Positions 2,787 to 5,042 of a stretch of DNA of 35,275 nucleotides are shown here, in pieces (the first letter of the stretch is position 1; each line of letters opens with the position of its first letter). The DNA is from Bacteroidota bacterium (GTDB lineage Bacteria > Bacteroidota > Bacteroidia > AKYH767-A > 2013-40CM-41-45), in NCBI GenBank assembly GCA_026391945.1, contig JAPLDA010000074.1, positions 1 through 35,275 on the forward strand. The letters are read 5' to 3'. The translations under genes and the position numbers were made by a program. The notes under the pieces are model-generated. The model ran no database searches, had not been told where the DNA came from, and was given only the letters and a program-made list of their open reading frames with translations.

Positions 2787-3902
2787 ATGAACGGCTCTCA
2801 CATTCGTTTTATCGCTAAGGACAAAAGCACCAGCCTGTTTTTTGCCACGCTGCGTGAACGGGTGGATCAGTATTTCAGGAAAAATAATTTATCGAAACAC
2901 GCCAACACACAGATGGTGGTTAAAACCATGGTGCTGTTATCCGCCTACATTTTTCCTTTCATCATCCTCGTCACAATTCATCCATCGTTCAGCATTGGCC
3001 TGCTGTTGTGGGCGGTGATGGGATTTGCACTTGCCGGTATCGGCATGAGCATCATGCACGATGCCAACCACGGAGCGTATTCATCAAACAGCAATGTTAA
3101 CTATTGGTTAGGACACAGCCTGAACTTATGCGGCGGTTCTGTTTTCAACTGGAAGATGCAGCACAACATCCTTCATCATACCTATACCAACGTCTTCAGC
3201 AAGGATCATGACATCAGCGATAAACTCATCATGCGGTTTTCGCCTCACACCAAAGTGAAATGGTATCACCGGTTCCAGTTCCTGTATGCATTTTTGTTTT
3301 ACGGAATCCTCACCATCTACTGGACTTTCCTGAAAGATTTTATACAGTTCAAACAGTACATCAGGGAAGGTGTGAACAGGAATACAAGATCACAAAATCA
3401 AAAAGCATTTTTAAAAATCATCCTGAGCAAACTCCTGTACTTTTTTTTGTTTTTGATTCTTCCTTTGATGATTTTAAAAATGCCGGCGGGCGCATACCTG
3501 GCCGGTTTCCTGTTGATGCAATTCATTTCCGGAGTTGTGCTTACGGTTGTTTTCCAGCTGGCGCATACGGTGGAAAAAACCACTCATCCTACGCCGGATG
3601 AAAACCATACCATCGAAAACAACTGGGCGATTCACCAGATGAATACGACGGTGAATTTTTCGAGGAAGAGTAAAATGATTTCCTGGTATGTGGGAGGATT
3701 GAATTTCCAGGTCGAGCATCATCTCTTTCCTTCTATTTGTCATGTTCATTATCCGCAGATCGCAGGTATTGTAAAGACAACAGCGGAGGAATTCAACATC
3801 CCTTACTTAGAAAACAAAACTTTCTTTTCGGCATTCCGGTCGCATGTGAGGTTGTTGAAAGAATATGGAAAAATGCCACCCGAAAAAATGGCGGTTTCCT
3901 GA
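2787..3902 (+). CDS. membrane fatty-acid desaturase (acyl-CoA/linoleoyl-CoA desaturase-like)
   Basis: This 371-residue integral membrane di-iron desaturase introduces a double bond into acyl chains of membrane lipids, a usual route to keep membranes fluid. The three histidine boxes are present: HDANH (91-95), HNILHH (126-131) and QVEHHLFP (from 308). The Q in QVEHH is typical of the front-end/delta-6-like branch. Hydrophobic segments lie around residues 45-80 and 210-260. There is no fused cytochrome b5 domain, so electrons must come from a separate donor. It sits next to the rhlE-csp cold pair but after its terminator, so joint regulation is only suggested. The 266-bp gap before it shows no clear promoter. 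Repeat copy A begins 12 bp past its stop. Confidence 0.9.
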   Translation: MNGSHIRFIAKDKSTSLFFATLRERVDQYFRKNNLSKHANTQMVVKTMVLLSAYIFPFIILVTIHPSFSIGLLLWAVMGFALAGIGMSIMHDANHGAYSSNSNVNYWLGHSLNLCGGSVFNWKMQHNILHHTYTNVFSKDHDISDKLIMRFSPHTKVKWYHRFQFLYAFLFYGILTIYWTFLKDFIQFKQYIREGVNRNTRSQNQKAFLKIILSKLLYFFLFLILPLMILKMPAGAYLAGFLLMQFISGVVLTVVFQLAHTVEKTTHPTPDENHTIENNWAIHQMNTTVNFSRKSKMISWYVGGLNFQVEHHLFPSICHVHYPQIAGIVKTTAEEFNIPYLENKTFFSAFRSHVRLLKEYGKMPPEKMAVS

Positions 3903-3914
3903 CCGGTATTTTTC

Positions 3915-4033
3915 TCACTTTCCCCAAGCTTTGTCTTCGAGCATCGGAACGAAACGGAAATTTTTCAGCTTAGGTTTTCAAACTGACTGAATGATCTGAG
4001 ATGGATTCTTTTTTATCTTCGTTACTTTCTTTA
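3915..4033. repeat. 119-bp direct repeat, copy A (contains a copy of the pcm 3' end)
   Basis: This copy is identical over 119 bp to 4255-4373, with a period of exactly 340 bp. Positions 3917-3967 (51 bp) are identical to the last 51 bp of pcm on the minus strand. They could encode its final residues FRFVPMLEDKAWGK, but with a TGA stop and an in-frame TGA shortly upstream, so the copy is not a gene. The outer end forms one arm of a perfect hairpin at 4021-4045. Confidence 0.9.
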
Positions 4034-4254
4034 GAAGAAAGTAACCAAAGAATCGTGCGTTACAAAGGCAATTTTTTCACAGCCGCACATGCCATCGCTT
4101 CGAAAAACCACGGATTGAAAACACGCAAATGCGCAAACCTTAACTTCGTGTTTTCAACCGCTATTGCTGTGTAACGCTCCCGGCGTTGTTGTAAACTTCC
4201 AGCACCGGAAATGCATACATCAACTTAAATCATTCAATGAATTTCGAAAATCAT
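4021..4254. other. structured non-coding spacer with three hairpins
   Basis: This gap between repeat copies A and B has no plausible gene. It holds three perfect inverted repeats. GTTACTTTCTT/AAGAAAGTAAC is at 4021-4045 (11-bp arms, 3-nt loop). TTGAAAACACG/CGTGTTTTCAA is at 4115-4125 and 4147-4157 (11-bp arms, 21-nt loop). AACGC/GCGTT is at 4173-4187. This density of palindromes is unusual for the window and suggests a small mobile repeat or a structured RNA; neither is proven. Confidence 0.5.
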
Positions 4255-4373
4255 TCACTTTCCCCAAGCTTTGTCTTCGAGCATCGGAACGAAACGGAAA
4301 TTTTTCAGCTTAGGTTTTCAAACTGACTGAATGATCTGAGATGGATTCTTTTTTATCTTCGTTACTTTCTTTA
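4255..4373. repeat. 119-bp direct repeat, copy B
   Basis: This is the second 119-bp copy, identical to 3915-4033. Its 51-bp pcm-tail segment is at 4257-4307. It runs directly into the real pcm 3' end (copy C, 4373-4423), so two copies of the gene tail lie about 116 bp apart. The hairpin arm GTTACTTTCTT is present, but its partner arm is missing at the junction. Confidence 0.9.
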
Positions 4374-5042
4374 CTTTCCCCAAGCTTTGTCTTCGAGCAT
4401 CGGAACGAAACGGAAATTTTTCAACTCGTGTTTTTCAATGCCTGTTTCAGAAGTTTTAAGAATGGTGGTCATGGTTTGAATTTCACCGGCTCCGACGGGT
4501 ATCACTATGATGCCGCCGACTTTCAACTGTGTGACCAAATCGGCCGGAATGAAAGGCGCACCGCATGTCACCAGGATTTTATCGAAAGGAGCGAATGAAG
4601 GAAGTCCTTTGTAACCGTCGCCATAAAACATTTTGGGAGCATAGCCGATGCCGGGAAGAAACTTTTTCGCCTTGTCGAACAATTCTTTCTGCCGTTCGAT
4701 GGTGAATACTTTGGCGCCGAGTTCGAGCAGCACGCTGGTCTGGTAACCGCTGCCGGTGCCGATTTCAAGAACCTTCTCCCCTTTTTTTATGCCGAGTAAA
4801 GAAGTCTGGTAGGCAACCGTATAAGGTTGCGAAATGGTTTGCCCGGCGCCGATTTTAAAAGCCTGGTCATCGTAGGCCTGGTTGAGGAATGCTTTGTCGA
4901 GAAAAAAATGCCTCGGAACACGCATCATCGCTTCCAAAACAGGTTCATCATCAATTCCTTTCGCACGAATGGTTTCGATGAGTTTCTTTCTCATTCCCTG
5001 GTGCTTAAAATTATCTTCCGGCATATTCTTCATGGTCATCAT
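4371..5042 (-). CDS. pcm: protein-L-isoaspartate O-methyltransferase
   Basis: This enzyme repairs aged proteins by methylating L-isoaspartyl residues with S-adenosylmethionine. From the chosen start the protein has 223 residues, normal for the family. Visible features are RVPRHFF near residue 41, GQTISQPYTVAYQ (the substrate-binding QPY motif, about 67-79), SAM motif I VLEIGTGSGYQT (91-102), post-I FTIERQKEL, GDGYKG, and the terminal FRFVPMLEDKAWGK. I place the start at the ATG at 5042; 5039 and 5033 are in-frame alternatives, and the longer frame upstream has no family similarity. The last 51 bp are present twice more downstream (3917-3967 and 4257-4307). It is convergent with the desaturase and divergent from the Gfo/Idh/MocA gene. 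Confidence 0.92.
   Translation of the reverse strand: MMTMKNMPEDNFKHQGMRKKLIETIRAKGIDDEPVLEAMMRVPRHFFLDKAFLNQAYDDQAFKIGAGQTISQPYTVAYQTSLLGIKKGEKVLEIGTGSGYQTSVLLELGAKVFTIERQKELFDKAKKFLPGIGYAPKMFYGDGYKGLPSFAPFDKILVTCGAPFIPADLVTQLKVGGIIVIPVGAGEIQTMTTILKTSETGIEKHELKNFRFVPMLEDKAWGK

Follow-up and report, generated by a model that had tools for sequence, protein, structure and literature searches.

A dispersed repeat between a desaturase gene and pcm in a Bacteroidota genome, and a probable cross-phylum class of hairpin-ended extragenic elements

The desaturase–pcm gap and its dispersed repeat

The window analysed, a stretch of 35,275 nucleotides from a Bacteroidota genome, carries genes for a fatty acid desaturase (PF00487; 2787-3902, plus strand) and, convergent with it, for protein-L-isoaspartate O-methyltransferase, pcm (PF01135; 4371-5177, minus strand; the listed open reading frame extends upstream of the likely start). 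A terminator-like site at the desaturase end (3892-3914, plus strand) is a consensus match alone. The gap between the two genes harbours, as the preliminary description had pointed out, two perfect 11-bp inverted repeats: a terminal hairpin, GTTACTTTCTT-TAG-AAGAAAGTAAC (4021-4045, minus strand), with arms at 4021-4031 and 4035-4045 around a 3-nt loop, and an inner body hairpin formed by TTGAAAACACG (4115-4125) and CGTGTTTTCAA (4147-4157). The third stem of importance is an 8-bp inverted repeat, the outer body stem between GCGTTACA (4057-4064) and TGTAACGC (4170-4177), which is also recovered in computed folds. Among 1,000 dinucleotide-preserving shuffles of 4021-4187, four contained one perfect repeat of 11 bp or longer and none contained two. 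The computed RNA fold of 4016-4200 has a z-score of -3.5 on the plus strand (none of 200 shuffles was equally good) and of -2.2 on the minus strand (6 of 200). Elsewhere in the window, at 819-904, nested perfect inverted repeats of up to 22 bp surround GGCTTCGACAGGCTCAGCC / GGCTGAGCCTGTCGAAGCC in a dispersed-looking palindrome, and letters resembling it were seen in the genome G028 (locus L016).

The three stems of the gap lie within a dispersed repeat element, here called E, which spans 4021-4190, its 3' limit being approximate (4177-4190). Its probable RNA strand is the minus strand, on which the hairpin would stand at the RNA 3' end. Next to the hairpin, the purine tract CAAAGAAT (4046-4053) is a mirror of the stem; the minus strand of this tract, UUCUUUG, is a putative third strand. 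A search of the genome with the region, of the kind the preliminary description had proposed, returned E, whole or in part and with its hairpin, at four further loci (C57, C82, C14 and C111). The C82 copy contains an additional stretch of about 50 nt, the C14 copy has the same extra stretch together with an internal loss, and at C111 the start of E alone is retained. Compensatory changes relative to the window are present in the C57 hairpin (GTTCC/GGAAC) and in the inner body stem (ACACG/CGTGT in the window versus ACATG/CATGT at C82). The body of E was found in no other genome among 395 of the class, save for one chance-like 31-nt match in G120, and body-specific pattern searches gave no match in genome contigs outside this genome and none in viral sequences.

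The surroundings of E appear to have been rearranged by duplication. A 119-bp direct repeat, composed of the pcm tail, 54 bp and 13 nt of E, occupies 3915-4033 and, with all 119 positions identical, 4255-4373. According to the preliminary description, the first palindrome ended at the edge of this repeat; the repeat in fact stops at 4033, the apex of the 25-bp palindrome, and for this reason its second copy retains one arm only. The further claim that the copy at 4361-4373 had lost its partner arm where it meets pcm was correct: this second E is truncated to its first 13 nt, is broken at the apex, and is joined by its left arm to the pcm end. The genuine pcm 3' end (KNFRFVPMLEDKAWGK plus stop; 4373-4423, minus strand) is one of three occurrences of the same 51 bp, the others being at 3916-3966 and 4256-4306. 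Both extra copies end in TGA, and the genuine gene in a TAA supplied by the junction with the hairpin arm. We infer that the 119-bp repeat is a local tandem duplication of the pcm 3' end with its break at the hairpin apex. Within 3915-4423 the pcm-end junction falls exactly on that apex, an arrangement that resembles hairpin-provoked template switching.

A reading of the flanking 51-bp repeats as a target duplication was dropped, because the sequence past the second copy resembles, by eye, the pcm 3' flank of the relatives G007 and G004, and because direct repeats surround the C14 copy of E (53 bp, 85% identical; L007 1405-1729) but none were found around the copies at C57, C82 and C111. The stretch AATGATCTGAGATGGATTC beside the element (window 3988-4010 and L033) resembles, inverted, a pcm downstream stretch of G004.

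A hairpin module in at least eight phyla

Genomes of the same order contain further repeats whose first hairpin is of this type, for example G030 (GTTACTTTC..CAAAGAA). In G017 and G028 the hairpin reads TTTCTTTTCTTT..CAAAAGAA and the bodies differ; G017 has 25 matches to its own version of the repeat. Beyond the order, the end hairpin GTTACTTTCTTT..AAAGAAAGTAAC followed by CAAAGAA, hereafter the module, recurs in at least eight phyla. A scan of a species-genome collection (84,980 genomes by description) for GTTACTTTCTT-N(2-18)-AAGAAAGTAAC gave at least 120 stretches with 126 hairpins, and CAAAGAA follows in one orientation in 111 of the 126, the orientation having been chosen to favour that tract. 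Hairpins with CAAAGAA-type tracts were found in Pseudomonadota, Bacteroidota, Bacillota, Desulfuromonadales, Lentisphaeria, Nitrospirae, Hydrogenedentota and Fusobacteriota, a range read in part from record titles, several records being metagenome bins.

With the extended pattern, between 1 and 80 copies were counted in each of 27 genomes picked for holding a match, and a backward-pattern control gave none in all 27. Copy numbers were highest in Lysobacter sp. yr284 (80), Caballeronia glathei (62), Silvimonas terrae (51) and Chitinophaga skermanii (49); no match was found in 20,395 E. coli records. The window hairpin itself was matched, on the minus strand, by R1, a model of 73 modules containing no sequence from this genome (43.7 bits, E 1.4e-9).

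The covariance models of Rfam 15 had no match in the window, and their seven matches in 18 loci did not fall on a module; with the threshold relaxed to E 1, there was none at 3903-4440 or at L084 1500-1950. Sequence-string and topic searches, which covered few of the subscription journals, found no published description of such a repeat class. A class of up to 80 copies per genome is present without a family in Rfam as searched and without a name that we could find. Its 25-nt core is near-invariant over eight phyla while loop and flank co-vary, which is unusual for an extragenic repeat and points to a shared constraint, either an RNA structure or a common protein partner.

Loop pairing, mirror tract and strand

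The loop of the module is complementary to the bases that follow CAAAGAA(A). At least four Watson-Crick pairs are possible in 74 of 109 distinct loop/downstream pairs (4 of the 126 hairpins were dropped for want of orientation); when the pairs were re-dealt 1,000 times, the mean count was 23.6 and the highest 37. Counting one per distinct loop, 42 of 73 showed the pairing (re-dealt mean 13.1, maximum 24); controls on the upstream side and with same-sense matching gave 21 of 115 and 13 of 109, respectively. In the 73-row alignment, all five pseudoknot pairs vary on both sides, and the covariation score of the whole structure is 0.198 compared with 0.086 after shuffling (0 of 500 as high) and with at most 0.089 in slid registers. 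Cells paired amount to 90.2% for the whole structure versus 82.5% shuffled, and to 67% for the pseudoknot helix, a figure that we think reflects register shifts in some families. Stems are conserved and covary across module copies, and the covariation indicates that the loop (P) and the flank (P') would form an H-type pseudoknot in most copies across phyla.

The purine tract 3' of the hairpin mirrors the right stem arm, and the two change length together. In this genome, stems with three T carry tracts with three A in the window copy (C22), C14 and C82, and four T go with four A at C57 and C111. Over the collected loci (191 of 393 raw matches kept, 187 of them with a readable stem), stem and tract lengths were 3-3 in 128 and 4-4 in 37; 3-2, 3-6, 3-8 and 4-3 occurred once each, and 18 were unreadable. 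The exact four-T hairpin was restricted to this genome among the 395 of the phylum scan. A prediction fixed beforehand, that four-T stems carry CAAAAGA, was examined in 369 genomes of another class, 18 of which matched, with a pattern that also permitted the three-A form CAAAG. It was true for 56 of the 59 four-T hairpins among the matches listed, these being the first places of each genome, and the rule was seen in 17 of the 18 matching genomes; the exceptions among those listed were G894:C1:122873, G1128 and G1148:C72. Loop pairing was also present in this four-T set, in 20 of 25 cases (control mean 3.8, maximum 10).

Base changes follow the same mirror relation: at L093 a stem C-G has become T-A and the tract G an A, and at L129 and L151 a stem T-A has become C-G and the tract A a G. 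As core stems are near-invariant, with 8 of 12 pairs never varying in the 73-row alignment, the case for a triple helix rests on length changes and this handful of base changes.

Intramolecular triplexes and H-type pseudoknots have a pyrimidine tract running parallel to a purine strand. The mirror relation would have this geometry on the minus-type strand, where the pyrimidine tract would run parallel to the purine strand of the stem, and is the signature expected of an intramolecular triple helix; the triple probably forms in RNA of that strand. It is unlikely that the tract only repeats a protein-binding site, or arose through slippage, with no triple helix involved. Purine tracts are simple sequence and both tracts look alike in the three-T form, as such an origin would have it, but the four-T and T-to-C variants have a tract that mirrors the stem arm instead of copying it directly, which counts against a simple second site, and this tract offers no better alternative pairing.

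The strand can be approached through G.U-type changes. At the single stem position left unconstrained on both arms by the search patterns, 59 distinct hairpins have T-A in 38, C.A in 11, G-C in 5 and five other combinations once each, with no T.G, so that a G.U pair would arise in 11 of 59 on the minus-type strand and in 0 of 59 on the other. The stem of the 73-row alignment agrees, with eight G.U against one C.A on the minus-type strand. Counts in the pseudoknot helix (7 versus 5 cells, 6 versus 2 distinct stems) do not decide the strand. G772 has changes in the left arm and in the tract but none in the right arm, a pattern that fits the minus-type strand only. An RNA of the minus-type strand is favoured, though not proven, and a structured RNA appears the better supported of the options named in the preliminary description.

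In the window, positions 4021-4052 hold the stem GTTACTTTCTT/AAGAAAGTAAC and then CAAAGAA, with three T in the stem and three A in the tract, but the loop of 3 nt makes P/P' pairing impossible; in G030 of the same order, the loop TACGTGA can pair with CACG. Judged by its sequence, the window copy is a reduced member of the class, with stem and mirror tract kept and the loop pairing absent, and any triplex there would be without the pseudoknot clamp.

Competing readings, possible action and related systems

Modules have a partly paired architecture. Of 59 modules with enough space for one, 20, about a third, have an inward-facing partner less than 1 kb away (238-693 bp), as in MITE-like elements; viewed from the other strand the same inward pairs are 20 of 68. 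Over all 79 modules, two outward and no tandem partners were counted. Repeated inverted units in a Caballeronia plasmid have a module at each end, and the window copy has no module partner.

The 841 ORFs of 120 loci include no gene family that goes with the modules, and a linked autonomous gene was rejected on this ground; the two largest ORF clusters, from 10 and 9 loci, are permease-like and ABC ATPase-like by eye. With a crude ORF caller, neighbouring genes are convergent in 27, divergent in 17 and tandem in 31 of 75 cases, and there is a weak bias to gene 3' ends, the upstream gene pointing at the hairpin in 62 of 101 cases and the downstream gene in 49 of 93. The matches in 13 plasmid records all lie outside annotated genes; annotation is sparse or missing in at least three of these records.

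We consider it rather probable, taking the dispersed repeat, the cross-phylum class, the pseudoknot and the triple-helix reading together, that the region is a copy of a dispersed non-coding repeat specific to its lineage, and that the hairpin at its end places it in a class of extragenic elements shared across phyla. The structure might instead act in DNA: an unknown transposase could recognise the module as a folded single-strand end and move these MITE-like elements in trans, with the mirror tract either forming a triplex or touching the protein. Modules at both ends of inverted units of 0.24-0.7 kb (inward in 20 of 59, outward in 2, tandem in 0), the repeated units of the Caballeronia plasmid and the many near-identical copies within single genomes speak for such a role, which would leave much the same sequence pattern. 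The bias of G.U-type changes towards one strand (11 to 0, and 8 to 1 in the alignment stem) is not needed for DNA, however, and no gene neighbour is shared among the 841 ORFs; we regard action in DNA, taken as a whole, as doubtful but deserving attention.

The hairpin had also been likened to those at the borders of REP- or MITE-like units, and the dispersed copies with conserved, covarying stems bear out this part of the comparison. Membership of the REP/RAYT family, with mobilisation by a Y1 tyrosine transposase, is extremely improbable and was rejected: the hairpin is an extragenic palindrome in many copies and the genome has one Y1_Tnp gene, but neither a GTAG nor a CGTC tag adjoins 4021-4045, the locus of that only gene (L062, 3.3 kb) holds no copy of the element, and the unit is 150-600 bp long and in most families includes a pseudoknot. 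In front of the Y1 transposase gene, at L062 1200-1500, there are short palindromes (CCCTTTCAGGGTTC, CCCGAAGGGATGACATAATTATA), possibly REPs belonging to that gene.

A bidirectional terminator between desaturase and pcm, the other early suggestion, would suit the convergent position and the palindromes. The hairpin at 4021-4045 is, however, A+T-rich, lacks the G+C-rich stem and T-run of an intrinsic terminator and was not called; called sites lie elsewhere (3875-3905 and a weak one at 4122-4135), and the gene pairs that flank copies at other loci have every orientation (27/17/31 of 75). We rejected the hairpin as an intrinsic terminator and hold a terminator role to be very improbable.

Returning to the structured RNA, its minus-type strand (opposite GTTACTTTC-CAAAGAA) would read in the order P' (4-6 nt), the pyrimidine tract UUUCUUUG, the stem arm GUUACUUUCUUU, a loop with P, and AAAGAAAGUAAC. 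Pairing of P with P' would close an H-type pseudoknot, and the pyrimidine tract could then lie along the purine strand of the stem in U.A-U and C+.G-C triples. A gene transcript running into the element would acquire a triple-helix hairpin on its 3' side that may block 3'-to-5' exonucleases and so protect the RNA, much like the ENE triple helices of eukaryotic transposon RNAs; elements with a module at both ends would protect transcripts from either side, and for the window copy this would concern the pcm transcript. We tentatively favour this block as the most likely action. It is possible, but distinctly speculative, that the class is a selfish repeat of many bacterial phyla whose terminal triple-helix pseudoknot, comparable to the eukaryotic ENE, caps the 3' ends of transcripts that run into it, so that the repeat maintains itself by making host mRNAs and its own RNA more stable. 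The class now has a ready sequence signature and a falsifiable structure.

Telomerase RNA contains an H-type pseudoknot with major-groove triples, in which the pyrimidine loop 1 runs parallel to the purine strand of stem 2. The module would share this arrangement, but it is dispersed in many copies and has no known protein partner. MITEs are short and non-coding and have inverted ends; module elements are likewise short and non-coding, with inverted ends in part of the copies, whereas the window copy is single-ended and neither a transposase nor a target duplication was recognised. The palindromes of REP/RAYT systems bear a GTAG or CGTC tag and are, like the module, extragenic, present in many copies and found in several phyla (PMC3733652), but the module has no such tag or nearby Y1 transposase, belongs to a longer unit and shows loop-to-flank covariation. 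ENE triple helices, such as those of MALAT1 and Evade/Copia93, occur in transposon and long non-coding RNAs; they are eukaryotic and use the poly(A) tail and U-rich internal loops, unlike the module, a self-contained bacterial hairpin or pseudoknot with a proposed function. In the ENE a U-rich strand lies on an A-rich one close to the 3' end of RNAs that include those of mobile elements, and the module would resemble it in this; for the Arabidopsis element Evade, deletion of the ENE is reported to lower RNA stability and mobility (PMC12501189).
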